Below the pieces are notes generated by a model that ran no database searches, was not told the DNA's origin, and saw only the letters and a list, made by a program, of their open reading frames with translations. DNA of 64,000 nt from a virus, in IMG/VR virus record IMGVR_UViG_3300030060_003910, positions 30,355-94,354 of that record; one strand, 5' to 3'. Below are positions 15,316 to 58,886 of this stretch, piece by piece. The translations under genes were made by a program, and so were the position numbers. How positions within the stretch are numbered: position 1 is the first letter of the stretch; every line of letters starts with the position of its first letter.

Positions 15316-16209
15316 ATGAAAGTGGTTTATGGACATACTGATTCTATCTATGTGCAAATTGATTCCGTAGAAGCCGCACAAAAAGCAATTAAGGTGATTG
15401 AAGATGAAGTCAAAAAAAGTTTCCCGAATATTCTCGGACTTGAACAGCATCCCGTTAGTCTGGAGTTTGAGAAGTATTATTCGGCGTTGGGTGTTGGAAC
15501 AACCAAAAACAGAAACGCAGGGTTAGTATCTTGGGAAGATGGAGAATGGTTAGAAAAGCCCAAGTTTAGTATGACTGGATTTACGGCAAAGCGTGTTAGT
15601 GAAACTAAATTGGCTAAACATATTCAAACTGAAACTCTCAAAATGTGGGTTGAAGGTAAAACACAAGCAGAAATTGTGCATTATCTACACCGACAATATA
15701 CAATGGTTCTTGATGGAGAATTGAGTATAATGCCTCTTATCAAAAGAAGCCGTCTGAGGGAAAATAGGTTCATGGTAAAATGCCCCGAATGTAATACAAA
15801 GTATCATGTTCGTGATTGTATTAACTTGAAACATAAGGTATGTGAAAAGTGTGCAACAGAAACGACTAGATTTACAACCCTTGATGGAAAGAAACCCACA
15901 TTTGGTGCTGGTATTGCAGGTGTTTTGTATGCTTGGGAAAAGAAAGACACTAATTTTGATGATTCTTATATTTATTTAAAAGTAAAGGGCGTAAATGATT
16001 TTTATACTCATCCTTTAACGCAAGAAAGGCGAGAAGTTGAATACTTATCAGGCACAACCGCTAAGGATTTTAGCGGTTATCGTCCAGACCTTGCGTTCTA
16101 TGCCTCGCAGGTGGTAAAGAAGGCCGAACCGATTTTCAAGGCGATGGATTGGGATATATCGGCCATACGGACGGGGAGATTACAGGCAAGCCTTGATGAA
16201 TGGTGGTGA
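15316..16209 (+). CDS. polB: DNA polymerase B, C-terminal part (motif C, thumb, PIP box), 297 aa
   Basis: Second half of the split polymerase. It begins MKVVYGHTDS, so motif C lies at residues 5-10. The first Asp of the canonical YxDTD is His; the second, essential catalytic Asp is retained. A KxxxTGFTAKR segment follows, then an unusual Cys cluster (CPEC, later C, then CEKC, about residues 155-180) that should bind zinc in the thumb. The last residues, QASLDEWW, fit a PCNA-interacting peptide. Joined to the first half the chain reads through motif C with no residues missing. Confidence 0.93.
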   Translation: MKVVYGHTDSIYVQIDSVEAAQKAIKVIEDEVKKSFPNILGLEQHPVSLEFEKYYSALGVGTTKNRNAGLVSWEDGEWLEKPKFSMTGFTAKRVSETKLAKHIQTETLKMWVEGKTQAEIVHYLHRQYTMVLDGELSIMPLIKRSRLRENRFMVKCPECNTKYHVRDCINLKHKVCEKCATETTRFTTLDGKKPTFGAGIAGVLYAWEKKDTNFDDSYIYLKVKGVNDFYTHPLTQERREVEYLSGTTAKDFSGYRPDLAFYASQVVKKAEPIFKAMDWDISAIRTGRLQASLDEWW

Positions 16210-43545: not shown

Positions 43546-44898
43546 TCAAAGGAGATTGGTAATCTTTCCTTGACCCTTGAAGTAAGAACAGCCAGTCTCA
43601 GCCATTGTGCGGTAAAGAGCCTTGTTTCCAAGGTTGCCAACACCGAATGGGTTTCCGTTGCTGATACCGTCTTCAAAGTATTGTGTAGGCTTCATCACAG
43701 ATAGCCACAAATGGTCAGTATCAAGGAAAAGCATATCGCTGATTAAAGAACTGTTTGTTCCGGTAGAAGGCATAGCGGCAACAGGAATCAAAGGAATGTC
43801 GTAGTAGGTAGAAACACGGAAACCGACTTCTTGACCCTTAACACCACGAACACCGTTCACGGTTGGAACGATTTCCTTTCTATCCATAAATCGCTCTTGA
43901 GCCTGAAGCAAGTCAGAAAGCGTTTGAAGCGTATCATATCCCGTAAGAATGACCTTTGGCGAACCACCAGCAACACGGAGTCTGCGAACCATATCGTTGA
44001 TAACGGTAAGCGTTAATTGTCGTGCTTCTGCGGAGGTATAGCCAGCACCGAAAGAAACTTCTGCATCCAAATACTCGTTGCCCGAAGCACTTCGGAGTTT
44101 TCCGTAAAGAGTGTCAATTTGTTGGTCAGATGCACTATCAACGAGGTTTCCACCAGAATTGTCAGCCAATTCGGTAATCTCAGCCGAGTTAGAAACAATC
44201 TTCATAAGAGAAGTGTAGCCTCTATCAATGGCATTTGCCGTATTGTAAGCCGTTGTTGGAGAATAGTTCTCTAATGGCATAACAAGCATAGTGTTTTGAA
44301 CTTCAGCGTGATGCTTCCCCATATCCTCTCTCAATTGAGCGCGAATATCACCGATACCATCATCAATTTGAGCCATTTCCATAGCCAATTCGCTGAAAGC
44401 GAATTGATGAGCGATGATTTTTGGACTCGTAAAGAGCGTATCGTATTCGGGAGCAATTGATTGAAGACCATCCGAATCCGAATCTAATGATGCGTTTTCT
44501 GGAACACCACCAATTCGGTCTGCTCTTAAAGCATCAGCACCATAAAGTGCAGTATTAAGAGTAGTGTTGGAAGCGGCAGAAATGTCCAAAAAGTTTCCAG
44601 CACCACCAGCAGGACGCTTCTTGAGGATTCTCCAACCACTTGAAGAATAAGGTCGCTTTGCGATAACAGACAATGCGTTGCATTCTCGGTTTAGCATAGA
44701 CCAGACTTTTTGGCCGTAAATTTTGTTGTAAAGGTTTGCGTTAATACCCGTTGGGTCGCTTAACGAACCATCGTGAGCGACATGAATGCCGCTAACGGTT
44801 CCTGCGGCTTTTAGCAATTGATTGCTAATATGCCCGGTTGCGCCCGTTCCGTATGTTGCTGCTTCTAAATCTGCAATAGTGTTAATATATCCTACCAT
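43546..44898 (-). CDS. major capsid protein (HK97 fold), 450 aa
   Basis: Shell protein. Position after the protease-scaffold, length, and segments such as a long spine-type helix with SPKIIAHQFAFSELAMEMAQ and KVILTGYDTLQTLSDLL followed by PLIPVAAMP and LFLDTDHLWL are typical of HK97-type capsid proteins of archaeal and bacterial siphoviruses. Residues 1-60 may be a removable delta-like arm. Confidence 0.8.
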   Translation of the reverse strand: MVGYINTIADLEAATYGTGATGHISNQLLKAAGTVSGIHVAHDGSLSDPTGINANLYNKIYGQKVWSMLNRECNALSVIAKRPYSSSGWRILKKRPAGGAGNFLDISAASNTTLNTALYGADALRADRIGGVPENASLDSDSDGLQSIAPEYDTLFTSPKIIAHQFAFSELAMEMAQIDDGIGDIRAQLREDMGKHHAEVQNTMLVMPLENYSPTTAYNTANAIDRGYTSLMKIVSNSAEITELADNSGGNLVDSASDQQIDTLYGKLRSASGNEYLDAEVSFGAGYTSAEARQLTLTVINDMVRRLRVAGGSPKVILTGYDTLQTLSDLLQAQERFMDRKEIVPTVNGVRGVKGQEVGFRVSTYYDIPLIPVAAMPSTGTNSSLISDMLFLDTDHLWLSVMKPTQYFEDGISNGNPFGVGNLGNKALYRTMAETGCSYFKGQGKITNLL

Positions 44899-44909
44899 CT
44901 TAAATCACC

Positions 44910-46148
44910 TCAAAGGTTTCCTCCAACCATTTTATGAATGTCAGCCCAATCCATTTCGGCTAATTCTTCCATAGTAGGGAGTTTGATTTGGGCTTCTTCT
45001 TGAGCCTTAATAATGTTGTCTCTTTCAGTCGTCAAAGACTTTCGGAGGGAAGCAAATTCATTCTTAAGAGAAGCAATTTCGGAAGCCGCATCATATTGCG
45101 ACTTTGCGAGAATGTTCTCTCTTTGAGAAGTTTCAGCCTTAAAGCGAGCCTCAAACTGCTTTTGGAGGTTGTCGTAAGCCAACTTCTCCAATTGCTCTTG
45201 ACGGAAAGCATCGTAAGCCTTCTCAATGTTAGCAACGCTCAAATCAAGCGTTTCTAACTCATTGTTGTTAAATGCCTTAACAACGGGCAAGTCGGAAGCC
45301 TTTGGTCGGCCCCCTTCAATGATGATTCTGTCAGCAGGTTCTCCAATTTCAACACCTGCGCCATCAAGAGTAGGAACATAGGCTTTGGCTTCATCATCCA
45401 TGTATTCACCCATGCCTTTTTCTTCCATCATCTTGTCTTTTTCAGACATCATCTTGTCTTTTTCAGACATCATTTTGTCTTTATCCATTAACTTTTCCGA
45501 CATCATTTTTTCGTCGTCCATGTCCATGCTTTCTTCTTCTTCCTTTCTCAGCATATTGACTTCCTCCATAAGAGCGTCAAGTTCTGCCAATGCTTTTTCA
45601 ATTTTGGTCATATTTTTCACCTTTTTTGTTTTTTCTTGCTTTAAAATGTCAAACTTTGCTTCTGGATTAATTCCTTTTTCACAAATAGTGACTTCATGTA
45701 ATTCTAACTTTGAAATTTCGTTGTATTGTCCAAATTCATTATTGGTTTTCTTTACTTTTTCTAAAGCCTGTCCTCCAATACTAAAACTTCTTAATGAACC
45801 TTTTCTAATGCCTCGGTTAATTTCTTTGGCTTTTTCAATATCATCTCTTAATTTGATTACAACAAAGAATCCTACATCATCAACTTCTGTTTTGAATAGT
45901 CTCCCTGATTTATCTCGGTATGATTTAACGACTTCTCCGACTTGAACATTTGAATGATTTGTCATTACATTTCTAAACTTTGGGTTCTCCATGTATTTAT
46001 TTACCGCTTCTTTAAGGGCTTTGAGTGTGATTAAATCATTTTGCTTATCAACGATTTCAATGCTTGCATATCCTCCAATCATCAAGTCGTCTTGGCTTTT
46101 AAGAATCCTGAAATCGTGAGCGTTGTTCTTCATCACCGCAGAAGTCAT
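44910..46148 (-). CDS. prohead protease fused to scaffold, 412 aa, with C-terminal Trp motif
   Basis: N-terminal ~175 residues are an XkdF/S78-like serine protease: IGGYASIEIVDKQNDLI, a His in MTNHSNVQVGEV and the nucleophile box SLRSFSIGG. The remaining part is a scaffold: acidic Met/Lys/Asp/Glu-rich, with tandem SEKDKMM units (DNA repeat at 45429-45491) and long coiled coils. It ends EMDWADIHKMVGGNL, the C-terminal copy of the Trp motif seen in many late proteins. ATG 46148 follows GGGGTTGAGAAGA; TTG 46163 is the alternative start. Confidence 0.8.
   Translation of the reverse strand: MTSAVMKNNAHDFRILKSQDDLMIGGYASIEIVDKQNDLITLKALKEAVNKYMENPKFRNVMTNHSNVQVGEVVKSYRDKSGRLFKTEVDDVGFFVVIKLRDDIEKAKEINRGIRKGSLRSFSIGGQALEKVKKTNNEFGQYNEISKLELHEVTICEKGINPEAKFDILKQEKTKKVKNMTKIEKALAELDALMEEVNMLRKEEEESMDMDDEKMMSEKLMDKDKMMSEKDKMMSEKDKMMEEKGMGEYMDDEAKAYVPTLDGAGVEIGEPADRIIIEGGRPKASDLPVVKAFNNNELETLDLSVANIEKAYDAFRQEQLEKLAYDNLQKQFEARFKAETSQRENILAKSQYDAASEIASLKNEFASLRKSLTTERDNIIKAQEEAQIKLPTMEELAEMDWADIHKMVGGNL
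45429..45491 (-). repeat. 21-bp tandem repeat in the scaffold domain
   Basis: Two exact 21-bp units (45429-45449 and 45450-45470; CATCTTGTCTTTTTCAGACA plus T) and a degenerate third unit (45471-45491). In frame, coding for SEKDKMM repeats, so the repeat number can change without breaking the protein. Confidence 0.85.
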
Positions 46149-46192
46149 TCTTCTCAACCCCAACTACCTATTATCCAGTATATAAAGAACAC

Positions 46193-49189
46193 CTATTCTT
46201 CGGTGGGAAGGGGCAATTTATTATACCTATCCTCATAGATGTTCCACTTTCCTTCATCCCCTTCCTTATCAGCAGGGGTCTGTTTGTAGCCTGTCCAAGC
46301 AAGCCACATTTTTTCTCCGTCCACATCTAAGACTCTATAATGCATTTTTGTTTCAAACTTGTTGCCTTCTAAGAAATATTCATGGTAGCCATCTCTTTGA
46401 ATACCTAAACGAATTTTACCTGAATCTACTATTTTGCCTTTAGTTACTGTTTTTGCTACTTCTGCTGGATATTTACCAGCAGCCCCGAATAAGTCAAACA
46501 TCTCTTCTTCGTTTTCAATATCAATTGTCCAGAACATATTTTCTGTCTTTAGTTTGATTGCTAAGGTTAAGTTATCATCTTCTCTAGCATATAATTTAAA
46601 TTCTCCTTCTCTTAATTCAGGAGGTGTTTTATATTCTCCTTCAACAGCCTTAATATCTTCTTTAAGCATAGCGTATTTATCCGAAAAGCCTGAACCGAAA
46701 GAACTACAACTTTTGTATTCGTCTCTAATTGCGAGATATTCCTCATCATCATCATTATCGCCAATTACATCTTCAAGAAATTCAAGAACTTCTTCACAAG
46801 ACATTTCATTCAAAAAATTAGCATAGTTTTCTATTTCTTCTTCCATTGTATCAGCATACACTATATCGCTACCATAATTTATCTCATTAAAAATTTCATT
46901 CCATGAATTACCAGAATTTTCTAAAATGCTTTCATAGGTTCCTCTTGTTTTCCCAATTAACGCTTGCTTCATTTGTTCGCAACAATCTCCCGAAACATCA
47001 GCCTCCATTTCAACTTCTGCTACATTTTGATTTACATTAGGTTCTTCTTCTACTCTCATAGTAGGGTTATTCATTCTTTGTTTTACTTTTAATTGTTGAG
47101 CCATCATAGGCTTCATTGATTTTAAAATCTCTTCTTCTTGCATGATTTTATCATCATCAGCAGCAATTTTATCATTTTTTTCGCTGATGCCATCTCTAAG
47201 AATAGCCCATTTTTTTAACTTCTTTTCATCGGAATCAAGAACCTGTTCATACAAATCTTCATGTTTTTCTTTTAAGAAATTATGTATCTGCCTTGGAGTC
47301 TGTTCTCCGTTCATTTTTAGATATTGGAAAATAGCAACAGTTAATTCACTTTGCTTAGTCTTCATAATATCAATGGCTTGTTGTTTCCACATATCTATAT
47401 CCATTGTAGCATTCTTAGACATTAGATTATCTTCTTCATAACCATAAATAGCGAACCCTTCTAAATCATACTTAATGATAACATTTGCTTGTCCGTGAAT
47501 GTGGTCTGTAATTTTAACACCTTTCGTAAATGCTTCAACATTATAGTTAAGAGACTTCTTGGTGTCTTGTGAAAGTAATTCCAAAGTGATTAATTTATCG
47601 GGATGCTCAACTTCAGGTATTTCAATTGGTTTAGCAGAAAACAAACTAAATCCTTCTCCCTTCTTTTTGACTTCATCCACCTTAACTCGGATAATGTCTC
47701 CAACATCAACAGCAATTTTTGTATTCAAAGCCTTACCTACATTTAAATATTGTTTCTTATCAATTTCAACTGTCCCTTCCATTTCGTCAGTAATTGGCCC
47801 AACACCAACTGTATAAGAATATAAATTGCTTTTTGTCTTTTTCTTATCTAATACAATAACATCTAAATCAACAAACTTCTTTAACTTAATCCACTTTGGG
47901 TTTTTCTTTGTTCCAATATAATAAGTAGAAGTAGCGTCTTTGATAACGACTCCTTCCGAAGAAGGATTTTGCATAATTTCATCTGCATATTTTTGTATAT
48001 CCTTAAGATTGTCTGCTTGTCGCGTATCTTTCTTTGAAGGATAAGCAATTGCTTCACTAGATTTTGATGCATAATTATTGAATAAAATTGTCATTCTACT
48101 CTCTAATTCTTCATCCGCAAGAGTCTGAGACTCATGGCGGATAATATCAAAAACATGACATCTTAATGTAGCATCTTTGTATTTGCCTTTAAAAACATGA
48201 GCGATTGTATCTGCTCTATGAAGAGGGTCGTCGCCATCAAAGAGAACTAATTCTGCATCAAAGATACAGTCTCCATATTCTTTCTTCTTTAATTCTTCAG
48301 CCTGTGCTTTACATTTATCAGTAATGTCTTTTTCATTATAAGAATAAATTTTTACTTTATCATCAATTTTATGTAATTGAACTCTCATGCCGTCAAATTT
48401 TTCTTGAACATACCAATTGCCGCTAAATCCTTTTAACTCACTAATATCATCTACTTCAAAAATCCTATACATAGGTTTATTGGGAACAATGAACTGGGAA
48501 ATAGATTTTTTCTCGTCGCTTGGAACAGACTTTTGAACACCTTCAATATCGGTAATGTCTGTCCATTCTTCTTTACTATTCTTAGACAAGAAGATTAATT
48601 CTAACATATCCATAGCGGCCTTTACTTTAGATTCAACCTTCTTTGAGTCTTTTCCATCACCGTAATGCTCTATAATATAGAGGGCCACATCGTCCACTTC
48701 TAGGTCAAGTCCCATAAGACCCGCCGTAATTGTGTCGGGAGCCATGTCTTTAACGCTGTAAATGTCATCGGATAGGGCTTTATTGTCGTCCCTTATAGCA
48801 TAATGCACAAATTTAACCATGCTTTCGGGATTATCTAGTAATTCTTCAAGCACACTATCCTTGAACATGGCGGCGAAGGGGTCGGCCACAAGGGATGAAG
48901 AATATCGTAAAAGTTTAATATTCTCGTAAAGTTCTTTGGCTTGGCGTGAAGAGGGGTCTTTGACATCTTTATCGTCTAAATCCTTTTCATCAATGAAGTT
49001 TTTCATTTCTTTACCAGCCGCATCAGCCTCATTATACGATTCAATGATAGTATCAACTGCTTTACGCCAACGACCCGAATATTCTGTTGGGTCTTGTCTT
49101 GCAGATAAATAGGCCACTCTCGTCTTTTCAAAAAGACGCAATATTTCTTGAGAAGGCTGTTTATCCTTCTCAATAGAAGCCAATTTCAT
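46193..49189 (-). CDS. virion-cluster ATP-dependent DNA ligase, multidomain, 998 aa
   Basis: A second DNA ligase, placed among head genes. Nucleotidyltransferase motifs: I EKFDGMR (Lys near residue 261), III FDAELV, IIIa CHVFDII, IV EGVVIKD, V WIKLKK, followed by an OB-like domain. Before it is a ~230-residue helical region like a ligase N-terminal domain. After it are ~450 residues of unknown domains, with a Cys pair (GDCCEQ) and a final beta-rich module (FWTIDIENEEEMFDLFG, then 'KMWLAWTGYK'). It may travel in the capsid and close nicks after DNA entry; that is inference. ATG 49189 is preferred over GTG 49198. Confidence 0.88.
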   Translation of the reverse strand: MKLASIEKDKQPSQEILRLFEKTRVAYLSARQDPTEYSGRWRKAVDTIIESYNEADAAGKEMKNFIDEKDLDDKDVKDPSSRQAKELYENIKLLRYSSSLVADPFAAMFKDSVLEELLDNPESMVKFVHYAIRDDNKALSDDIYSVKDMAPDTITAGLMGLDLEVDDVALYIIEHYGDGKDSKKVESKVKAAMDMLELIFLSKNSKEEWTDITDIEGVQKSVPSDEKKSISQFIVPNKPMYRIFEVDDISELKGFSGNWYVQEKFDGMRVQLHKIDDKVKIYSYNEKDITDKCKAQAEELKKKEYGDCIFDAELVLFDGDDPLHRADTIAHVFKGKYKDATLRCHVFDIIRHESQTLADEELESRMTILFNNYASKSSEAIAYPSKKDTRQADNLKDIQKYADEIMQNPSSEGVVIKDATSTYYIGTKKNPKWIKLKKFVDLDVIVLDKKKTKSNLYSYTVGVGPITDEMEGTVEIDKKQYLNVGKALNTKIAVDVGDIIRVKVDEVKKKGEGFSLFSAKPIEIPEVEHPDKLITLELLSQDTKKSLNYNVEAFTKGVKITDHIHGQANVIIKYDLEGFAIYGYEEDNLMSKNATMDIDMWKQQAIDIMKTKQSELTVAIFQYLKMNGEQTPRQIHNFLKEKHEDLYEQVLDSDEKKLKKWAILRDGISEKNDKIAADDDKIMQEEEILKSMKPMMAQQLKVKQRMNNPTMRVEEEPNVNQNVAEVEMEADVSGDCCEQMKQALIGKTRGTYESILENSGNSWNEIFNEINYGSDIVYADTMEEEIENYANFLNEMSCEEVLEFLEDVIGDNDDDEEYLAIRDEYKSCSSFGSGFSDKYAMLKEDIKAVEGEYKTPPELREGEFKLYAREDDNLTLAIKLKTENMFWTIDIENEEEMFDLFGAAGKYPAEVAKTVTKGKIVDSGKIRLGIQRDGYHEYFLEGNKFETKMHYRVLDVDGEKMWLAWTGYKQTPADKEGDEGKWNIYEDRYNKLPLPTEE

Positions 49190-49203
49190 AGTAATCACTA
49201 TGC

Positions 49204-49758
49204 TTAGTTCCTAAATCGCGTAGACCTTCTTTCAAATTTAGGGTCTAAAGTTTCTCCTGAATAATCCGAATCGTATGCAATTGTTTGTTCAGCGATTTTA
49301 GATAATTGTTCTTCAAGTTCTCCTAATTGCTTAGTAATGTCTACAATATGTCGTTGCATAAATTGTTTCATATCCGGGTCTTTTACATCCTTTAAATCCC
49401 TTGCTAGACCTTGAAGCATTTTATCAAATCCATCAATTTGAGCAAGAATATTTCTTCTTTTTTCATCATCTAAAAAAGGATTTGTCTCAAAATCTTCGGG
49501 TAAAACAGCCTTTAATAATTCATACATTTTTGTAATCTCACCAGCATAAGCATGAAAAGTTGTTGGCCCATCATTTGATTCTGCCTTGTAGTTATAGTTT
49601 TCAGCCTTTGGTCGCTTCAATTTAACTGCTTCCGAATCATCATCCATAGGATTTCTGTTGTTATCCATCAAGGATTGATAAAGAATTTCCTTGGCTTCTC
49701 TTGCCTTTTGGATAATAATGCTAATTTGTCTTTCTTCTCTCGTTACTCTTTCAGGCAT
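49204..49758 (-). CDS. hypothetical coiled-coil head-cluster protein, 184 aa
   Basis: Helical and charged, with heptads near the C-terminus (IDGFDKMLQGLARDL, ITKQLGELEEQLSKIAEQ). ATG 49758 follows GGAGTGATTTAT; the frame is open further upstream. It may serve as scaffold or internal protein. Confidence 0.6.
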   Translation of the reverse strand: MPERVTREERQISIIIQKAREAKEILYQSLMDNNRNPMDDDSEAVKLKRPKAENYNYKAESNDGPTTFHAYAGEITKMYELLKAVLPEDFETNPFLDDEKRRNILAQIDGFDKMLQGLARDLKDVKDPDMKQFMQRHIVDITKQLGELEEQLSKIAEQTIAYDSDYSGETLDPKFERRSTRFRN

Positions 49759-49763
49759 ATAAA

Positions 49764-50009
49764 TCACTCCATCTTTGAAACCATCTTGTGAATATCCGAC
49801 CAATCCATGCTAGAAACATCAGTAGATGGTAATGTGTCAAAACCACCAACAGTATTATCCATAGCAGGTGTTGGGCTTTGTGAAACAACAAGACCAGCCT
49901 TCATCAAAAGACTGTCTTTTGCGTAGATTGTTTTTTCTAACGCTTCAACCTTTGCGGTTAAAGCCTTAATAATTTCTAAAACATCTTTGTTAATACTTTC
50001 TTCTGTCAT
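49764..50009 (-). CDS. small coiled-coil protein ending in the Trp motif, 81 aa
   Basis: N-terminal coiled coil (VLEIIKALTAKVEALEKTIYA), a flexible Pro/Thr/Ser middle, and the C-terminus SSMDWSDIHKMVSKME. That end is nearly identical to the end of the protease-scaffold (MDWADIHKMV). It may be a second, shorter scaffold. ATG 50009 follows GGAATGTGATATT. Confidence 0.65.
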   Translation of the reverse strand: MTEESINKDVLEIIKALTAKVEALEKTIYAKDSLLMKAGLVVSQSPTPAMDNTVGGFDTLPSTDVSSMDWSDIHKMVSKME

Positions 50010-50013
50010 AATA

Positions 50014-50268
50014 TCACATTCCAAATTTAGCCTTGCACTTATCTCTTTCTTTCATATATTCTTCTTCGGACATTCCGCCCATTCCAAATTTCTTATTCAA
50101 ACGGTCTATACAGGCAAGATAACTTTGAGCATCTAAAGTGCTTCCTCTCATAGGTTTTCTTCTGCTTTCGCCTCTAAATCCTGCTGAACTCATTCCCCTT
50201 GCTTTTGATACTTCATTACAGTCATTACAACCGCAACCGCATGCCTTTAAAATTGTTTTCCAACTCAT
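50014..50268 (-). CDS. Cys-rich cargo-like protein with N-terminal Trp motif, 84 aa
   Basis: Begins MSWKTILKA, then a Cys cluster CGCGCNDC and a basic/Gly-rich stretch, then a helical acidic C-terminal half with one more pair of Cys. Possible metal binding. Overlaps the neighbours by 4 and 11 bases. Confidence 0.65.
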   Translation of the reverse strand: MSWKTILKACGCGCNDCNEVSKARGMSSAGFRGESRRKPMRGSTLDAQSYLACIDRLNKKFGMGGMSEEEYMKERDKCKAKFGM

Positions 50269-50453
50269 TTCTTATCCTCTCCTTTGTAAAAAGACTGAAC
50301 TAATTTATTATATTCTTTTTGATATTTAGGAATTGTAGCAAAATCCATGCTTACTCCTGCCCTTCCTTCTGGATTATATTTATCCATCATTATTTGAGTA
50401 GCCTTAGTCTGTGCTTCGTCATAGGACATTTTAAGAATATTTTGCCAACTCAT
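50265..50453 (-). CDS. cargo-like protein with N-terminal Trp motif, 62 aa
   Basis: Begins MSWQNILKM, followed by a helical charged body. No other domain. Start and stop overlap both neighbours (ATGA). Confidence 0.6.
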   Translation of the reverse strand: MSWQNILKMSYDEAQTKATQIMMDKYNPEGRAGVSMDFATIPKYQKEYNKLVQSFYKGEDKK

Positions 50454-50815
50454 TGCTTTTTCTCTCCTTTTCCTCTTGGATGAATTAAATCTCGTAATTG
50501 ACGATAGAGCAATTCATACTCCTTACGCAACTTCGTAGCAGTAGCGACAATATCAATGTTGCGTTCATCCATTGACTTCATTTTCTTGTTTAACTTCTTA
50601 TCTGATTTAATTAGTTCTAATTCTCTAAGAGTAGAAATAAGTTCACCTAGTTTAGTAAAATCTTGACCAAAAAATTCGGTGGGTTCTGCGGCTTGAAGTG
50701 TTTTCTTTAACTTCTTTCTTCCTTTAGCATCCAAAGAATCAAGGAGTTTCTTAGGCTCCTGTTTTTTCTCTTTTAGAATAAAATCATTACCCTCTCCATA
50801 ATAGTCCCAAGTCAT
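50450..50815 (-). CDS. hypothetical basic helical protein, 121 aa
   Basis: Begins MTWDYYGEGNDFILK, which has the Trp at position 3 but not the exact spacing of the motif. The rest is Lys-rich and helical, with 'LRKEYELLYRQLRDLI' near the end. TGATG overlap with the upstream gene. Confidence 0.6.
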   Translation of the reverse strand: MTWDYYGEGNDFILKEKKQEPKKLLDSLDAKGRKKLKKTLQAAEPTEFFGQDFTKLGELISTLRELELIKSDKKLNKKMKSMDERNIDIVATATKLRKEYELLYRQLRDLIHPRGKGEKKQ

Positions 50816-52476
50816 CACTCTTCCTCCTTTGGTGGGTCTTTAAAAACCCTCTTGGATTCTTTTGTTCGTAATTCTTTCGGCTTTCTATCCTTAATTTTAC
50901 TCTCAATGAAATTAACAACTTCTTGTAGTTCTTCCGCTTTCTCTTCATATTTTTGAGATAATTCTTCAAACTTTCCTACGACATCTACATCAAGTGTAGG
51001 TGCGCCTTCAAAGAAACCTCCATCTGCTTCTATAACCAGTTTAGTATCAGGATTGCTTTCCAAATATCCCATTAATCCTTGTTCAATATCGCCTTCCGCT
51101 TTAGAACTAAGCCTTTCCATCTGTTTAGCATATCTACTTAAATCAAAAGCAATATTGGCTCCCTTAGTTAATTGTTCTTTAATTTCAGGTAGGGGGTCGC
51201 TTTGTTTAAATATGTTTAAAAGAGTGCTAAATTCTTTCAAAGTAGGGTTCAATCTATCAAAAGCATCCAAATCTACTTGAATCCTTTCTAATTTTCTTTC
51301 TTCAGCACGAAGTTCTTTTTGAAGTTCTTCCTTAGCATCTCTAATGTGCTTTTCTCTATTGCTATCAATATCTTTAATCATCGCACTAATCTCTTTAATT
51401 GAAGCAATTTTCTTTTCTCGGTTTCCCTTGCTTCCCGAAGCAATAACTCTTCGCAAGGCTTGATTTAATTTTTTAACCTGTCTAGCAACTAAATCATCTG
51501 GATTTTTGATAATCTCTCTAATGCTGTCTATTTTTTCTTCAATAAATACTTTTGTGTTCCTAATAGTAGCAGAATATTTTTGTGTAGCCTTAATTCTTCT
51601 TAATGCCCTTTCGTATTCTCTATTACCAGCCGCATCAGTTGTTCTCTTTTTGGCTCTTTGTAGCATACGAAGTCTTTCGTCTTTTACCTTCTTTCTAGGA
51701 ACTAAAGTTCTTGGCTCTCTCTTCCATCTTTGCTTATGAATAGTTCTAAAAACTTCTAAGAAACCAATCTTTTCCCCATCAACATCAAACTCAGTATTTA
51801 CAATATCGTTGAGTAATCCCTGTAAGTCTAATACATTAATATCTTCGCCCTTTTTAACTTGTTCTCTACCTTGTTTTGTATATTTATACATTGTTCCTGA
51901 AAGAACTCCATCAACTAAAAGCGACCCGTATTCATCTTCCAAAAAATTACTGTTGTCCTTCAGTCTAGTTAAGAAACCTAATAAACTGCTAGAATTAGTA
52001 GAAGTAGAACCTAATCTTGAATAACTTTGCATAACGCCTCTAACGACGAGTTTTCCATCTTTTCTTGATATTCTTGCATCAGAAGATATTTCCATCAAAA
52101 TATCTGCTTGGAAACTTAGATTTGATAAAATTTTGTAGGCGCTTTCTTCTTCAACAGACCTACTAAACTCTTCACCATATCTATTTTCTGCGATTCTAGC
52201 ATCTATTTGTGCCTGTTCATCAGCACTATCAACAGGAGCAGAATAACTTTCTTCTTCACTTGCTCTTGCAGAACCCGCTTCATCATCTTCTTGCTTGGCA
52301 ATAGCAATATATTTACGATAAGCAATCATATTTTGGGGATTCATATTCTCAATCAAAGATGCTTTGATTAAAGAGGCATTAGCCATTTCCTTAACCAACA
52401 TAGATGTATTTTCATCTAACTTTGCTTTGCTTAAAACATTAAGCAAAGATTTATCTTTGGCTAATTCAAAAAACAT
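50815..52476 (-). CDS. large coiled-coil head-cluster protein, 553 aa
   Basis: Acidic Ser/Glu-rich segment (about residues 65-105), a mixed domain (105-240), then about 250 residues of basic and acidic coiled coil (e.g. KKIASIKEISAMIKDIDSNR, then EELQKELRAEERKLERIQ). It ends in a Lys/Glu-rich tail. It may be an internal core or pilot protein. No family recognised. Confidence 0.6.
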   Translation of the reverse strand: MFFELAKDKSLLNVLSKAKLDENTSMLVKEMANASLIKASLIENMNPQNMIAYRKYIAIAKQEDDEAGSARASEEESYSAPVDSADEQAQIDARIAENRYGEEFSRSVEEESAYKILSNLSFQADILMEISSDARISRKDGKLVVRGVMQSYSRLGSTSTNSSSLLGFLTRLKDNSNFLEDEYGSLLVDGVLSGTMYKYTKQGREQVKKGEDINVLDLQGLLNDIVNTEFDVDGEKIGFLEVFRTIHKQRWKREPRTLVPRKKVKDERLRMLQRAKKRTTDAAGNREYERALRRIKATQKYSATIRNTKVFIEEKIDSIREIIKNPDDLVARQVKKLNQALRRVIASGSKGNREKKIASIKEISAMIKDIDSNREKHIRDAKEELQKELRAEERKLERIQVDLDAFDRLNPTLKEFSTLLNIFKQSDPLPEIKEQLTKGANIAFDLSRYAKQMERLSSKAEGDIEQGLMGYLESNPDTKLVIEADGGFFEGAPTLDVDVVGKFEELSQKYEEKAEELQEVVNFIESKIKDRKPKELRTKESKRVFKDPPKEEE

Positions 52477-52485
52477 TTAAAAACC

Positions 52486-52710
52486 TCAAAAAGGAATATT
52501 TTCTTTCTTTCCTCTTTTCTTTGATGGTAAAAGAATAACATCAGGATTATCAGCAGAAGAAGGTAATGTCTTGTGAGAAGTATCGGGAGGCAAACCAACA
52601 GACATATCTCTGTTCTTTTGCTTCTTATTGTTTTCTTGAGAAGTCAAAGCCTTAACTTTGGCTAACTCTTTTGTCAATCTTCTTTGCTTTTGGTGTAAAT
52701 CTTCACTCAT
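52486..52710 (-). CDS. hypothetical protein, 74 aa
   Basis: N-terminal basic coiled coil (QKQRRLTKELAKVKAL) and a polar Pro/Ser-rich C-terminal part. ATGA overlap with the upstream gene. Lacks the Trp motif. Confidence 0.55.
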   Translation of the reverse strand: MSEDLHQKQRRLTKELAKVKALTSQENNKKQKNRDMSVGLPPDTSHKTLPSSADNPDVILLPSKKRGKKENIPF

Positions 52711-53012
52711 ATTTTTTCCTCCAAACTTCCCTGTGTTCTTTCTAAAATAGCAAGTAATTCTTCTTTGGACATTTTACTGATTCTTTTAATGACCATAGGA
52801 AATAAATCCTTTCTTGTCATTTCAGCAAGATTAGCCATATCTTCATCAAACATAGTGTCTAAATCACCACTTTCACCCATAGATGGAGAAGGTTTCCCAC
52901 CTGCAATTTTAACAGGAGGCTTTCTTCTTTGCGGCTTTCTTGGGTTTCTACTAGGGTCTAATTCCCTAATAGGGCTTGTTCTTGCCTTAATAATTGCTTC
53001 CCATTCATTCAT
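52707..53012 (-). CDS. cargo-like protein with Trp-motif variant, 101 aa
   Basis: Begins MNEWEAIIKA, the W-x-x-I-I-K version of the motif. A basic Pro/Arg-rich linker follows (RNPRKPQRRKPPVK), then acidic helices with LFPMVIKRISKMSKEELLAIL. ATG 53012 chosen; the frame is open to a TTG at 53021. Lies directly downstream of the portal. Confidence 0.6.
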   Translation of the reverse strand: MNEWEAIIKARTSPIRELDPSRNPRKPQRRKPPVKIAGGKPSPSMGESGDLDTMFDEDMANLAEMTRKDLFPMVIKRISKMSKEELLAILERTQGSLEEKI

Positions 53013-53013
53013 T

Positions 53014-54654
53014 TTAACCAACTCTTCTTTCTGTCCTTGTGTCAGTATTTTGATTTCCAGCCTCTAAGGGCAAACCCGCCATTCTCTTATCTGGGCCTAC
53101 GCTCATTCTGCTTTTATTCCTTGTGGCGGGAGGGTTCTCTTGGGGCTTGCCTCCGCCTTGTATGGCCTGTTCTTGCATCTGGCCCAATTGTGAAGCATCA
53201 ATGTTTGTCCCTGCATACGGGTCAGGCGTTGCTTGCTCCCCCTCACCTTCTGCTGGTGGTTTTTCTTCGGGTTCAGGCTTTTTGAAAGTAAATTGTCCAT
53301 CTTCGTCCATATCAACCTCAAAGCCTAAGTTCTTTGTTGATGCAGCAATATTAACTTCAATTTCACGCTTACGAAGAACAGCAATTTCATCCTCTTCTTC
53401 GCTCGGTGGTAATTTCAAATTCCAATCGGTAATACCAAATTGCTTTACAAGGAATGGGAAAACATAATTGTTATAGACAGTTTGTGCTTTTTGAACGGCT
53501 CTATTTGTGACTAAAATCTGCATACCTTCATTGTTTAATCCACCGCTTGTAGTATTATCAGCCATGAATACTTTGCTTACACCATAAAAAGCAGAAATTC
53601 TATCTCTTAAATCGTCTTTCACAGAAACATAATCCATTTCCTTGAGACTATCCATGAACTTAATCCATTCAACAGCCCCTTTACCGCTTTCTGCTTCAAT
53701 TCCCATAACGGGGATGAAGTGGGGGTCGGCTTCCATCTTTTCTTTAACCGACCTCCAAAACGACCTCATAGAGTCCATGTTTCTTGTCTGAACTGCAAGC
53801 AAACCTCTCGGCATTCGGCTCTTTGTGTAGGATTGATTGACATAATTCTCCATAGCAATAAGTGTCATAATGTTGTTAAATAAAGTAATAACTGGAGACA
53901 TACCATAAAGACGAGAAGGACTATATTTACTAAAATGTAATACCTCTCCTTTTAAGAAATGCTGGTCTTCTCCTTTAACTCTATTAACATAATGAACAGG
54001 AAATAGACTACTACCACAAACTTCACATTTTTCATGTGGGTCTTTGTGAATAACACCACGATGATTTACACAGGTAAATCCTTTGGTTCCCCTTTGTCCG
54101 TTTTCATCACTATAAATAAACATTGTAACTGGGTCGCCACGATAAACTTCTTTGATACGATGCATTCTTATTTTACCATTACCGTCAATAAAGTATTCTT
54201 TAACAAGAACAATATAAGCATCATCCATAATATTTAAATCATCTTCAAGTTCCTGTAAAACATCAATAAACAACTGCTCAGACTTATTTACATAGCCTTC
54301 AATAAACTTCTCAGCATATTCTAATTGTTTAACATCAGGAATCTTAAGGTCAGCACTTTTACAACGAGAACATTCTTGAACAGGTCTTTTATGTTCTTTA
54401 CCACAATTATTACATCGTGCTTCATATGCTTTTTCCCAAATATAGCCTCTTCTAAATACTTCTTGCTTTAATTGAGTAATACAAGTTCTAGCAATAACTG
54501 ATTGATTGACAATATTATAGATGATTGGGCCAGTCATCATGTGATTGGTTTCTCTTTCTTGAATACCCATGTTATAGACTTTTCTATCAGCAGGTTTGGG
54601 AGTTTGTCTCCTAAACAGATTAGTAATGCTGAATCTTCTTTTTTCTTCAACCAT
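53014..54654 (-). CDS. portal protein with two zinc-ribbon insertions, 546 aa
   Basis: Dodecameric DNA gate of the capsid. HK97-type portal features: a LHFSKYSPSRLYGMSPV wing segment, MENYVNQSYTKSRMPRGLL, 'AFYGVSKVFMADNTTSGG'. Unusual are two Cys clusters in the N-terminal half: CNNCGKEH...CSRC (about residues 82-100) and CVNH...CEVCG (about residues 196-218). Each has four ligands and should bind zinc. The C-terminal ~100 residues are Pro/Gly/Glu-rich and flexible. ATG follows GGGGGTGTGATTC. Confidence 0.85.
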   Translation of the reverse strand: MVEEKRRFSITNLFRRQTPKPADRKVYNMGIQERETNHMMTGPIIYNIVNQSVIARTCITQLKQEVFRRGYIWEKAYEARCNNCGKEHKRPVQECSRCKSADLKIPDVKQLEYAEKFIEGYVNKSEQLFIDVLQELEDDLNIMDDAYIVLVKEYFIDGNGKIRMHRIKEVYRGDPVTMFIYSDENGQRGTKGFTCVNHRGVIHKDPHEKCEVCGSSLFPVHYVNRVKGEDQHFLKGEVLHFSKYSPSRLYGMSPVITLFNNIMTLIAMENYVNQSYTKSRMPRGLLAVQTRNMDSMRSFWRSVKEKMEADPHFIPVMGIEAESGKGAVEWIKFMDSLKEMDYVSVKDDLRDRISAFYGVSKVFMADNTTSGGLNNEGMQILVTNRAVQKAQTVYNNYVFPFLVKQFGITDWNLKLPPSEEEDEIAVLRKREIEVNIAASTKNLGFEVDMDEDGQFTFKKPEPEEKPPAEGEGEQATPDPYAGTNIDASQLGQMQEQAIQGGGKPQENPPATRNKSRMSVGPDKRMAGLPLEAGNQNTDTRTERRVG

Positions 54655-54707
54655 GAATCACACCCCCTGTTTTAATGCTACGCTATCCTCGCCTATGAAC
54701 GCTTCGG
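54655..54707 (-). other. 53-base intergenic spacer before portal
   Basis: Supplies the strong portal ribosome-binding site. The 10-base word CGCTATCCTC occurs here (near 54682) and again about 36 bases on (near 54719, within the preceding gene). No terminator seen. Confidence 0.35.
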
Positions 54708-54941
54708 TTATGGTTGCCCGCTATCCTCAATGTCATACCTTTCGTTGCTTGAACGCAACATTTCTTCTAAAATACCCTTTAAATAAGCCGCCCTATTTTC
54801 AGGTCGCTTAAATCCTAATTTTAAATAGTAAATAACCATTCTTTTATTAATGTCTGCTAAGTTGGAAAACTTAACATATTTTTTCCTATCTCTAGGTAAT
54901 TCATCATTTAAGATTCCACTTTTAAGTTGTTTCCAACTCAT
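54708..54941 (-). CDS. cargo-like protein with Trp-motif variant, 77 aa
   Basis: ATG 54941 gives MSWKQLKSGIL, a shortened form of the motif. The frame is open to an ATG at 54971, but that would overlap the upstream zinc protein and place the motif inside. The body is basic and helical (IYYLKLGFKRPENRAAYLKG) with an acidic tail. No clear ribosome-binding site for 54941. Confidence 0.55.
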   Translation of the reverse strand: MSWKQLKSGILNDELPRDRKKYVKFSNLADINKRMVIYYLKLGFKRPENRAAYLKGILEEMLRSSNERYDIEDSGQP

Positions 54942-54952
54942 TTTATTTTTAA

Positions 54953-55117
54953 TTAATAGGGTTTGGTCCATAGTAAAGCCTCATCAATTCTGCAAGTAAA
55001 ACATCTGTTGCTAATTGTTTCTGTTTTACACTTTCTACAAACAGTCGCGTATCTAATTTTTTTAGGTAGTTTAGTTCTTACTTTGTGTTTAAAAATATCG
55101 TAGTGCTTGCGAGGCAT
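54953..55117 (-). CDS. zinc-finger microprotein, 54 aa
   Basis: Starts by TAATG overlap with the upstream gene. A basic N-terminal half (HKVRTKLPKKIRY) is followed by CRKC and CFTC knuckles eight residues apart, a compact zinc ribbon. No Trp motif at either end. Confidence 0.55.
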   Translation of the reverse strand: MPRKHYDIFKHKVRTKLPKKIRYATVCRKCKTETISNRCFTCRIDEALLWTKPY

Positions 55118-55671
55118 TAGCAATTCCACCTTCTTCTTGCGGCTCTTGCTTTTTCGCTGTAAGTTCCATCTGCTCGCTTAAATCCTCTTGACCTTGCACA
55201 AAAAGATTTACGCCTCTTTGCTGCTTTGCTGCCTCTTTTTAACTTACTTGGTTTAGTAGTAACTGGTGGCTTTAAATTAGAACCCTGTTCACGCTTAAAC
55301 TTGGCACGACCTTTAGCACTTAATCCACCCGTTCTTGCGTGAATTTTTTTATTATAGCCCTTAAAGGGTTTCTTTTTCTTTTTAAGAATCTTTTCAATAT
55401 CTTCTGGTTTATGAGTGTAAATATCTCCATCTTCGTGCATAAAGATTTTACCTTCCTTTCTTAACTTAGATAGGGCTTGTTTAATTTCGGCTTCCTTACC
55501 AAACTGCTTTAGGTTTTTCATTCCTAATGCTCCGCCTTCTTTTTCAATTTCTCTAAGAATTTGACGCTCTAATTTTGACGCTTTCATTCTAGGACTAATA
55601 TTCATAAAATCAGTCATTTCATCAGGGTCTTGTTCAAATGGTTTTTTCAATATATCTTGCCAGTTAGTCAT
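55117..55671 (-). CDS. DNA-binding-like basic protein with N-terminal Trp motif, 184 aa
   Basis: Begins MTNWQDILKKPF. A winged-helix-like segment (residues 35-95: LERQILREIEKEGG, then LSKLRKEGKIFMHEDGDIYTH) is followed by a very basic C-terminal domain with SKAAKRRKSFCARSRG and KARAARRRWNC, a pattern I associate with small phage proteins of unknown function. Strong candidate for a DNA-binding internal protein. ATG 55671 chosen over an upstream GTG. Confidence 0.65.
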   Translation of the reverse strand: MTNWQDILKKPFEQDPDEMTDFMNISPRMKASKLERQILREIEKEGGALGMKNLKQFGKEAEIKQALSKLRKEGKIFMHEDGDIYTHKPEDIEKILKKKKKPFKGYNKKIHARTGGLSAKGRAKFKREQGSNLKPPVTTKPSKLKRGSKAAKRRKSFCARSRGFKRADGTYSEKARAARRRWNC

Positions 55672-56239
55672 ACTTATCACCTATCATATAGCCTAATTTT
55701 TTTCCTGCTTCAATGTCGCTTGGATAATGACTTCCCATTTGTATTCTTGATAAAGAAATTTTGTCAGCCATTTCTTTGAGTTCTTTCTTTTTATCTGGAT
55801 ATTTTTTTCCTAATACTTTTTCTAAACCATGAGCAAGCATTGAATGTCCACTTGGAAATGCAGGAGTATCGTCTGTTTTTGTTTTTGTTGTTTTTATTTT
55901 ATCAGATATTTGATGAGGTCGTGGTCTTTGATATTTCATTTTAAGCGTCATGGCATAATAGTTAATGTCCTTCATAAAGTCCATATAATTATTTTTATCT
56001 TCACCTACAATCTTAAACATTTCTACATCTGGTTTTAAATCAGAATCTTTCATTTGCTTAGGAGTTATCCTTTTCTTTCTCATTGTTGCTATTACAGAAG
56101 GTATTTCTTTTTCTTCTTGAGGGTAACTTAATTTAGGAATATCTATTTTCATTTTTGGACTTCTTTCTAATATTTTTCTTTTATCTTTTGAAAGTTTTCC
56201 TTGCCATTTTCTTTTCTTAAGAATAGAAAACCAAGTCAT
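55664..56239 (-). CDS. PAP2-type phosphatase with N-terminal Trp motif, 191 aa
   Basis: Three PAP2/acid phosphatase motifs are present in order: KYQRPRPHQ (near residue 100), PSGHS (near 129) and SRIQMGSHYPSD (near 164), including the two catalytic His. The family removes phosphate from lipids, nucleotides or other small esters. No membrane helices are seen, so it is a soluble form. It begins MTWFSILKKRKW, so it is a candidate for packaging in the capsid. The domain in between is helical and basic. Confidence 0.8.
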   Translation of the reverse strand: MTWFSILKKRKWQGKLSKDKRKILERSPKMKIDIPKLSYPQEEKEIPSVIATMRKKRITPKQMKDSDLKPDVEMFKIVGEDKNNYMDFMKDINYYAMTLKMKYQRPRPHQISDKIKTTKTKTDDTPAFPSGHSMLAHGLEKVLGKKYPDKKKELKEMADKISLSRIQMGSHYPSDIEAGKKLGYMIGDKYD

Positions 56240-56577
56240 TTTTTCATCCTCTCGGTTTTTCTTTTACTTGATTCTTTTCTTGATAATGCTACCTTGTGTG
56301 CCGCATTTAGTCTCTTTTTTGTTTCGGGGTCTTTTGCTCTTTTTGCTGCAACTCTTGCCCTTTGTTCAACTAAATTAATAATTTGTGATTGTCTTTTATG
56401 TGGCTTTGATTTGAATGATGAACTTGAAAATGTTTCTCTTACATCTTTTGCAGTTTTGAATTTAACAGGAACAGTATCTTTTGGATTTTCGTCTGTATAT
56501 AATCTTCTTGCTGAACCTTTAGGTTTCTTTCCCGTTCCTTTCTTTGGGTCTTTCTTTAGAATATTAACCCAATTCAA
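56236..56577 (-). CDS. basic cargo-like protein with N-terminal Trp motif, 113 aa
   Basis: Begins MNWVNILKKDPK. Extremely Lys/Arg-rich body with a short helix pair (QIINLVEQRARVAAKRAKD, LNAAHKVALSRKESSK). Composition suggests DNA binding in the capsid interior. Coupled to the neighbours by ATGA. Confidence 0.65.
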   Translation of the reverse strand: MNWVNILKKDPKKGTGKKPKGSARRLYTDENPKDTVPVKFKTAKDVRETFSSSSFKSKPHKRQSQIINLVEQRARVAAKRAKDPETKKRLNAAHKVALSRKESSKRKTERMKK

Positions 56578-57104
56578 GGTGAACCCTTCCTTCGTTTATA
56601 GGTCTTACAAGCAGCGCAAGTCGGCCTACATCTTCTTTTTGTTCCTTTAGATGCATCCTTTCTTCCGCAAGGCTTTGGCCCATCCTTTGAACCACATGAA
56701 CCACAATCAATCCACCCTCCTTGCGTTTTTCCTCCTTTAGATTCTTTTCCGCCTCTTCTTGAGAACCAACCATGAAGACCTTCACTTTTCTCTCTTTTGA
56801 AATTATCTCCACCTTTACGGAACATTTGTTCATATAAAAGGTCATTTTCTTTATAACAGTTCTCATTATTCTCTAAAATTCTATCTATTTCTTTTTCTTG
56901 CTCAGGAGTAAATTTTCCGTTGCGTATTACTTGACCAAAATAAAAGCCCATCTCGTCGCAACTTATTGTCGCAATTCTATTTAAAGCGAAGGTAGGGGCT
57001 GCTCTATAACTTTCCATAAAATCTAAAATATCTCGTCTATAATTATCACAACACAATTGACTAGCATCAAAAGTGAGACGCTTAAGAATTTTTTTCCAAG
57101 ACAA
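56574..57104 (-). CDS. Cys-rich basic protein with N-terminal Trp motif, 176 aa, TTG start
   Basis: TTG 57104 gives MSWKKILKR and follows AAGTGATT; GTG 57113 would add three residues before the motif. The N-terminal half is helical with scattered Cys (LCCDNYRRDILDFM); the C-terminal half is a Gly/Lys-rich linker and a Cys cluster (WIDCGSCG, PCGRKDASKG, RCRPTCAACK) that should bind zinc. Confidence 0.6.
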   Translation of the reverse strand: MSWKKILKRLTFDASQLCCDNYRRDILDFMESYRAAPTFALNRIATISCDEMGFYFGQVIRNGKFTPEQEKEIDRILENNENCYKENDLLYEQMFRKGGDNFKREKSEGLHGWFSRRGGKESKGGKTQGGWIDCGSCGSKDGPKPCGRKDASKGTKRRCRPTCAACKTYKRRKGSP

Positions 57105-57109
57105 GATAA

Positions 57110-57271
57110 TCACTTCTTTTTGGATTTATTTCCCCAATTTGCAGCACCGACTTTACGGCAACGGACAAGCGCACCTGAAGCGTATGCAGAAGGCCATTTC
57201 TTATAACGGCTTCGCACTTTATGATAACAGGCATCTTTTTCTTTCTTTAATTCTTCAAACCATAACGACAT
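57110..57271 (-). CDS. small conserved-type phage protein, 53 aa
   Basis: ATG 57271; the frame lies in an otherwise empty 160-base gap. The sequence opens MSLWFEELKKEKD and continues 'RYKKWPSAYASGALVRCRK' and GAANWGNKSKKK, a pattern I recall from small proteins of marine phages. The start is a loose variant of the Trp motif. The stop overlaps the next gene. Confidence 0.65.
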   Translation of the reverse strand: MSLWFEELKKEKDACYHKVRSRYKKWPSAYASGALVRCRKVGAANWGNKSKKK

Positions 57272-57275
57272 AATA

Positions 57276-58886
57276 TCACAACCCTATGTTTCCATATTTT
57301 TCAATATAATGCTTAATATATTTCTGCATTCTTCCAATTGCATAACTATAATTTTGACCAGACTCATACATCATATCAGCGAGTTTTAACTCTTTAAATA
57401 TTTTTTGACCTTCATTATCTAATTTTTCTGGTTTATTTTCTAAAAGTTTTTTAGTGGTTGAGATGATGTGGTCTACTTCTCTATCGCCTAAATTTTTCTT
57501 TTCTCTTAGATATGGATTTGAACTTTTAACAATTGTTCCAATGTTCTCTAAAGAGTCCATAACCGACATTTTACAATTGTCTTTGTATTTCTGTATATCA
57601 TCCAAGTAAATACCTTCCTTTAACCAATCAAAACCTACATGGTCTTTATGATTCTCCCACTTCATTAACTTGAAAATCTCATCACAACGGCCTTTATACC
57701 AATCGGCCTTCTTATATGACTTCTTCATGCGAATCAATTCAAGCAATAATTCAGCGTTGCCCTTTTTAAGACGAAAGTGAGGAAGACAATTCTTTAACAA
57801 TTTAGAAACATCATCCTGTGAATAAAAATTTAATCTATTAATTAAACGGGTTGCTTGTGGAGATTTCTGGTCTAAATGCATTCTACCGAAACCAAGAGAC
57901 TTATGCATTTCTTGCATAAAAGCCTTACCTCTTTCTCCCGTTGCGACTAATCCTACTCTTGGATTCATATTGCGGTCAAGTGTAATATAACCATCGGAGT
58001 CAATAAATGCAGCAGTATAAGCCCAAATGTTTTTCTTAATCATAGATGGAACTTTATAGTAAGAACCCTTAACTGAAGTAATGTCTAATTTCTTGATTGC
58101 CTTTGAGATTGAATTGGCACTTGATGACTTGTGTAAATCAGTAGGCATTCTTTCATGTATAGCAGAAGCATTAATTCCTGGATTTTCACAAACCATTTTT
58201 ACAATAAACTCTTGCTTTCTTTCCCTCTTTGATTTCGTAAGTGATTGGTCAGTAATCTTAGATATAACTTTTCTAAAATCTTTTTTAGCAGAAGACATGG
58301 TTTTGTGAAGTTCACTATACTTTTGGTTATAGGGCATTCCAGTCTGCTCTAATTCTGCTTCCCAGTATTTACAAAGAGCATCAATTGTTTCTCTTCTCAA
58401 TTCAGAACTCTTCATCTTGTGAAGTTTAGATAAATCTTTTTCATTATATCTCATTTTTCTTAAAGGAGCCTCATAATCATTTAACCAAGTAATAGAAGTA
58501 ATACACTTATTTAAATGGTCTGTATAAGCATCAATCATTGTATCAATTGCTTTAGACATTCGTGTTCGGTGTTCCCCCTTTAATGCACGACGAGACTTTC
58601 TCATCTTTCTAACTAAGTCTGGAATGGTGTGTTCTTGAACAATATATTCACTTGGAAAAGAGGCTAATTTTTTTCTTGCATCACTAGCATTAATATTGAA
58701 AGCAGAAGACAATTTGGTGATTTCTTCATGCTCAGACATTACATAAGAATTGCTAAAAATACTCTTCAATTCAGTATCTAACTGTTCCTCTATGGTATCT
58801 TTAACTTGTTCTTCTTCTTCATCTAAATCGGCTAAACGGTTCATTTGTTCAGCCGCTTGACGGTATTTATCTGCCTGTTCTGTCAT
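57276..58886 (-). CDS. LAGLIDADG-domain protein following terminase, 536 aa
   Basis: Three parts. Residues 1-270 are helical/coiled coil with a wHTH-like end ('NPGINASAIHERMP' to VKGSYYKV). Residues about 285-400 are a LAGLIDADG domain, with AYTAAFIDSDGYITL keeping the acidic residue, then RVGLVATGERGKAF and LRLKKGNAELLLELI-type segments. The remaining ~135 residues are helical. It may be a homing endonuclease next to terminase, or a domesticated one with a packaging role. ATG follows TTGAGGTATTTAT. Confidence 0.7.
   Translation of the reverse strand: MTEQADKYRQAAEQMNRLADLDEEEEQVKDTIEEQLDTELKSIFSNSYVMSEHEEITKLSSAFNINASDARKKLASFPSEYIVQEHTIPDLVRKMRKSRRALKGEHRTRMSKAIDTMIDAYTDHLNKCITSITWLNDYEAPLRKMRYNEKDLSKLHKMKSSELRRETIDALCKYWEAELEQTGMPYNQKYSELHKTMSSAKKDFRKVISKITDQSLTKSKRERKQEFIVKMVCENPGINASAIHERMPTDLHKSSSANSISKAIKKLDITSVKGSYYKVPSMIKKNIWAYTAAFIDSDGYITLDRNMNPRVGLVATGERGKAFMQEMHKSLGFGRMHLDQKSPQATRLINRLNFYSQDDVSKLLKNCLPHFRLKKGNAELLLELIRMKKSYKKADWYKGRCDEIFKLMKWENHKDHVGFDWLKEGIYLDDIQKYKDNCKMSVMDSLENIGTIVKSSNPYLREKKNLGDREVDHIISTTKKLLENKPEKLDNEGQKIFKELKLADMMYESGQNYSYAIGRMQKYIKHYIEKYGNIGL

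Follow-up and report, generated by a model that had tools for sequence, protein, structure and literature searches.

Our analysis revealed a short motif, W-x-x-I-L-K, at the N-termini of many otherwise unrelated late proteins of a putative archaeal virus and its relatives, and the sequences make it close to certain that this is a shared interaction motif. The reading that we favour, and consider probable, is that the tag acts as a portable helical docking motif that loads cargo into the head through the capsid-assembly contact of the scaffold, whose own C-terminus ends in a related motif. No earlier description of the tag was found in the literature searched.

The virus and the copies of the tag in the window

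The window analysed here covers positions 30355-94354 of a virus record of 94,354 bases, i.e. its final 64 kb. The right half of the window is a late minus-strand block, and in the left part the replication genes lie on the plus strand, among them those for PolB and a clamp-loader ATPase (RFC-like AAA). On the minus strand lie the terminase (TerL, 58896-60326), the portal protein (53014-54654), an S78 protease-scaffold (44910-46148; Peptidase_S78, E=6e-10) and the major capsid protein (MCP, 43546-44898; phrog_24667 major head protein, SU10_MCP), followed by the tail genes. Magrovirales have genomes of 90-100 kb in which replication and virion genes form two opposite clusters (PMC10768690), and their gene content comprises PolB, clamp loader, ATP ligase, HK97 MCP, protease, TerL and portal (PMC10768690). 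All of these features are present here (94,354 bases, opposite strands, PolB, RFC-like AAA, ligase, MCP, portal, TerL and S78 protease), and the size, the two opposed clusters and the gene content agree with the ICTV description of Magrovirales/Aoguangviridae (PMC10768690). We infer, with good support, that the virus is a magrovirus and that its host belongs to the Poseidoniales. The nearest named relatives of its capsid and portal proteins are the haloarchaeal viruses HVTV-1, HCTV-1 and HCTV-5 (24-31% identity), and the best Foldseek match of a low-confidence MCP model was the capsid of phage Mic1.

Some other genes of the window deserve mention. The family B DNA polymerase seems to be split in two genes (12920-14623 and 15316-16209), the second of which begins, by eye, near a YGHTDS motif; this arrangement agrees with the PolB-NTD/CTD split of the magrovirus profile. 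A 1001-aa ATP-dependent DNA ligase with a long, uncharacterised C-terminal region lies within the head-gene block (46193-49198). Between the terminase and the tagged cluster, the protein encoded at 57276-58886 contains a segment reminiscent of a LAGLIDADG homing endonuclease (AAFIDSDGYITL), for which no Pfam match was found at 1e-3.

A preliminary description of this DNA had listed seven N-terminal copies of the motif, every one of which proved real; these and all further copies named in this section lie on the minus strand. MSWKKILK (57081-57104) opens a 176-aa zinc/basic protein (56574-57104, TTG start) whose homologues are tagged or fused. MNWVNILK (56554-56577) stands at the TTG start of a basic protein (56236-56577) with a canonical N-terminal tag in 25 of 36 homologues and an internal one, directly before the body, in six more; HTVC033P gp40 is an untagged homologue. 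MTWFSILK (56216-56239) is carried by a PAP2/class A acid-phosphatase-like protein (55664-56239, E=1.6e-12) that resembles soluble class A acid phosphatases and not membrane PAP2 enzymes. The protein starting with MTNWQDILK (55645-55671) is composed of a winged-helix-like segment at its N-terminal side followed by DUF6321 (55117-55671, E=8e-15), and 76 of its 87 homologues are tagged. MNEWEAIIK (52986-53012) begins the product of 52707-53012, which adjoins the portal (homologues tagged 33/43). MSWQNILK (50430-50453) and MSWKTILK (50245-50268) begin a 62-aa protein (50265-50453) and an 84-aa Cys-rich protein (50014-50268; homologues tagged 13/13), respectively. The matches to PAP2, Peptidase_S78 and DUF6321 bear out what had been claimed of the protein bodies.

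The core protein encoded at 50450-50815, which had escaped the first listing, has the variant N-terminus MTWDYYGEGNDFILK (50771-50815); this start occurs near this virus, and orthologues in distant relatives carry the canonical MSWQDILK. Two starts had been put forward as variants. MSLWFEELKK (57242-57271), on a 53-aa basic unit (57110-57271, phrog_727), is indeed one, as several relatives have a canonical tag (MKWQDILK, MWFEVLK) at the same place. MSWKQLK (54921-54941, in 54708-54971) is real, but its family starts with [MT]-x-W-x-x-L-[KH] and is a non-canonical relative of the tag. The two reported C-terminal copies, MDWADIHKM and MDWSDIHKM, are also genuine: MDWADIHK (44931-44954) lies at the end of the protease-scaffold and MDWSDIHK (49785-49808) at that of an 81-aa coiled-coil-like protein (49764-50009). 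Finally, the internal SWKEVLK reported in 60338-61720 was confirmed (61097-61120, at about residue 202), but it is one of two internal copies, the other being SWFSLFK (61166-61186), which ends the first unit at about residue 180; both sit at a fusion joint. In relatives, the first part of this protein is a separate gene ending in a tag (locus L019: IPDWFNMLKRRN). By eye, its first ~170 residues are acetyltransferase-like, and no PHROGs or Pfam matches were found for the protein.

Distribution of the tag and turnover of the protein bodies

We fetched 188 related loci by their portal gene, together with whole records of ~91-97 kb from eight relatives, and defined a strict tag as W-x-x-[IV]-[LIV]-K within 14 residues of the protein start. 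In nine near-complete genomes, such an N-terminal tag is present on 113 of 596 late-strand genes (6 to 21 per genome) vs none of the 631 early-strand genes, in keeping with the expectation that the motif would mark late and not early genes. Composition-shuffled proteins yielded 0.095 tags on average, with a maximum of 2 in 200 shuffles, against the 113 observed. The tagged genes occupy a stretch that begins ~35 kb upstream of the capsid gene and reaches at most 5 kb past it, and on the tail side none of the 135 late genes starting at least 5 kb downstream of the capsid gene is tagged in the nine genomes, so the copies are confined to the head-gene side, as had been proposed. Six more strict-pattern tags occur on the same strand just outside the window (seven if K/R is allowed). 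Two loose matches within the MCP, WLSVMK and GWRILKK, were rejected as tags and left out of the counts because they belong to the conserved sequence of the capsid protein itself. Two of the fetched loci (L013 and L127) belong to one 184,733-base contig (IMGVR_UViG_3300021958_000021) with two different portal genes, which is therefore probably two genomes joined; another (L154) is a magrovirus contig filed under a Maricaulis metagenome-assembled genome, probably through contamination.

Of the 3548 genes in the 188 loci, 734 carry a tag. Grouped by their bodies, these form 164 clusters, and 43 of the clusters occur in at least three loci. When 121 of the proteins (mostly cluster representatives) were aligned, MxWxxILK was conserved and nothing else, and the cluster-weighted information falls from ~3 bits at position +5 (K, counted from W) to 0.4 at +6 and ~0.1 beyond. 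Our selection pattern fixes W, +3, +4 and +5 and leaves -1, +1 and +2 free; these free positions are nevertheless strongly biased (-1 to S/N/T, +1 to K/E/F/Q and +2 to D/N/E) and therefore provide independent evidence of one motif. The prediction that the motif would stay at the termini while the bodies change was thus clearly upheld in the 188 loci and nine near-complete genomes.

The bodies include small basic and zinc proteins, a winged-helix-like unit, a class A acid-phosphatase-like enzyme and large proteins of 600-870 aa, a range that, judged from sequence, would suit internal-protein roles; Pfam and PHROGs searches of the 121 bodies returned few functions. One tagged protein (L048, 828-1418) bears a HEETH zinc-metalloprotease-like motif. 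Untagged versions of some of the bodies occur in bacterial marine phages, found either by search (HTVC033P gp42 and gp40, HMO-2011 gene 63 and MEP402 gp49) or by eye among neighbouring genes (HTVC033P gp39, MEP402 gp48/gp50), and the similarity between phage and magrovirus bodies begins right after the tag. In the phages, HTVC033P gp39-42 (L235) and MEP402 gp48-50 (L240) form adjoining sets of small basic MAK... proteins. These sets correspond to several tagged magrovirus proteins, a gene set common across domains.

The tag is not restricted to N-termini. With one conserved capsid-protein stretch (109 hits) excluded, late genes contain 87 internal copies, of which 68 mark joints between units that are encoded by separate genes in relatives, and the unit downstream of the joint is often an N-tagged gene elsewhere. 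Examples are a basic unit fused to a PAP2 body (L004, 8109-8798) and the two joint tags of 60338-61720. Some families carry the tag at the C-terminus (PKWMGVLKWN, DFGIKKWFEVLK, IPDWFNMLKRRN).

Since most copies stand at gene starts, the conserved N-terminus could be read as a nucleotide-level signal for the translation or transcription of late mRNA; we rejected this reading, to which we assign a negligible probability, on the grounds that 20 distinct DNA sequences underlie the 35 WQDILK tags, that the starts of tagged genes as called include 31 TTG and 43 GTG codons and that C-terminal and internal copies exist. Codons for Ile, Leu and Lys in the tags are used roughly as in the genome background, and because codon choice varies freely, selection acts on the peptide. 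A capping box is present in 68% of weighted clusters, with an N-cap residue in 80% (vs 24% in the background) and an N3 residue in 85% (vs 36%). From this pattern we infer that the tag adopts a short, capped helical fold with S/D as N-cap and D/E at N3, in which W, I and L would share one face.

The scaffold C-terminus and the proposed role of the tag

Complete scaffolds have, with few exceptions, M-[DSE]-W-x-[DE]-I-[HN] at their end, and so does, again with few exceptions, the ~80-aa coiled-coil-like protein encoded between portal and scaffold. The W-x-x-I core as such closes both proteins at all complete loci that we examined. Among 68 aligned scaffolds, the W is invariant and I/H are conserved at 90% or more. 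When we scored windows with a profile built from N-terminal tags only, the scaffold end came 3rd-15th among ~26,500 windows in every one of the nine genomes, and the end of the ~80-aa protein came 8th-30th; many of the windows that outscored the scaffold end are themselves tags, located at fusion joints or downstream of starts that had been misplaced. The helix-capping box is found in both the N-terminal and the scaffold forms. From near to distant relatives, the residue before W shifts from D to S in the scaffold, and S at this position rises from 27% to 57% in the N-terminal tags, a parallel shift that hints at concordance between the two. A motif common to tags and scaffold C-terminus, as first suggested, is thus borne out, but the scaffold version is a related, distinct one: N-terminal tags end in I-L-K and scaffolds in I-[HN]-x, a difference that could mean separate binding partners.

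AlphaFold predicted a helix of ~80 residues in the scaffold, followed by short helices at 375-380 and 383-390, the last of which starts at W383; pLDDT was ~77-80 in the motif region of a model that is poor as a whole (mean 58). The scaffold thus has the conserved helical C-terminus after a long predicted helix that is looked for in a coat-binding scaffold domain. Known scaffolds have their coat-binding regions at their C-termini (PMC12005531), and the most straightforward interpretation is that the tag imitates this scaffold-coat contact.

In the mechanism that we propose, W-x-x-I-L-K would be a portable short linear docking motif whose helix binds a site on the assembling procapsid that is also bound by the C-terminal helix of the scaffold, most likely the inner face of the MCP as a direct or indirect partner. 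A protein that gained the tag would be co-assembled into the head beside the scaffold, would stay there with the DNA and would then probably be delivered to the next cell. Fast body turnover would arise because the tag makes cargo interchangeable, including the small proteins common to bacterial phages. Head loading of the tagged proteins is likely and their injection is plausible; for the complete scheme, an open cargo-loading system in which cargo with a scaffold-mimic helical tag is packaged, injected and exchanged by tag capture, we see even chances.

A different and rather unlikely, though still credible, explanation is that the tag brings late proteins, along with the scaffold, to one and the same non-capsid partner, e.g. 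to build an assembly site, without packaging; candidates would be a host factor (e.g. a chaperonin, RNA polymerase or a protein of a membrane site) or a viral hub, for instance the portal or the terminase. The tag is, after all, a short helical interaction motif on many proteins, and the MCP is a putative partner: a model of the scaffold tail joined to the MCP (L049 in its natural frame, with the TGA stop read as Gly) was poor, with a mean pLDDT of 54 and the tag near 45. However, the restriction to the head side, the absence from early and tail genes and the exact C-terminal placement in the scaffold favour a head-assembly partner, and portal or terminase as hub would still be compatible with head loading.

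It is improbable that the tag is instead a substrate or docking sequence of the S78 prohead protease, removed in maturation as a propeptide. The protease is fused to a scaffold bearing the C-terminal motif, which would suit such a role, but past +5 there are no conserved residues, variable residues follow the conserved K, and the prohead-protease site (L/I)xE is not enriched after the tag, occurring in 26% of clusters at +6 to +26 vs 28-29% further on; cleavage could still fall inside the tag. Less probable again is an amphipathic membrane anchor: W, I and L would lie on one helical face with a basic K at the end, but the tag has only ~8 residues, the scaffold version has acidic ones and the PAP2 cargo is like soluble class A acid phosphatases.

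Comparison with known systems

The loading reading of the tag is reminiscent of the capsid-targeting sequence (CTS) of phage T4: in IPIII, the first 10 residues suffice for packaging, and the cargo joins the scaffold core (PMC9026906). As in T4 IPI-III, a short N-terminal peptide is borne by unrelated, fast-changing cargo (PMC9026906), and here such a peptide is common to unrelated late head-region proteins. The analogy to T4 drawn in the preliminary description therefore holds for the logic of a shared tag and not for T4-like cleavage, a step that is not supported, as no enriched (L/I)xE site follows the tag. The tag also seems to differ in sequence from the T4 CTS, occurs at C-termini and fusion joints, is carried by 164 body clusters within a single group of archaeal viruses and has a counterpart at the end of the scaffold itself. 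We do not file it as a T4 CTS because the cleavage feature, when tested, was not found.

Encapsulin cargo-loading peptides are short, mostly C-terminal and sometimes N-terminal, and serve an HK97-fold shell (PMC8346489). The likeness lies in a terminal peptide at either end and would extend to cargo loading into an HK97-type shell. However, encapsulins lack terminase, portal and genome packaging, whereas this virus has portal and TerL; their peptide is unrelated (TVGSL), and they usually have one main cargo vs 6-21 here. The tag is not assigned to the encapsulin type because the shell here is not packaging-free.

Coat binding by the C-terminus is known for the P22 (hook), HK97, T7, SPP1 and 80alpha scaffolds (PMC12005531). 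In the scaffold studied here, a long helix is followed by two short predicted ones at the C-terminal end, and protease and scaffold form one polypeptide. In P22, cargo is not known to borrow the scaffold's short coat-binding motif. P1 DarA/Hdf and the SPN3US ejection proteins are reported to be packaged in the head and delivered to the host, as proposed for the tagged proteins.

If the loading reading is correct, one short pattern would predict virion-packaged, probably injected, proteins of widespread uncultured marine archaeal viruses and give a function to many 'hypothetical' genes, and the at least 164 tagged bodies would amount to a list of injected archaeal-virus proteins that could be recognised by their sequence alone. 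It would also point to an independent origin of T4-like cargo tagging in archaeal viruses, through copying of a scaffold contact, and would provide a small tag, usable at either end of a protein, for filling HK97-type shells with cargo.

HVTV-1 and its kin, the nearest named relatives found and distant in capsid and portal, are without the motif, which was absent from HVTV-1 when all frames of a 47-kb stretch were read. In HVTV-1 (L124), several head-region proteins (gp113, gp115 and gp116) repeat a stretch like VY[IV]xSPDEAPE, possibly another shared module.
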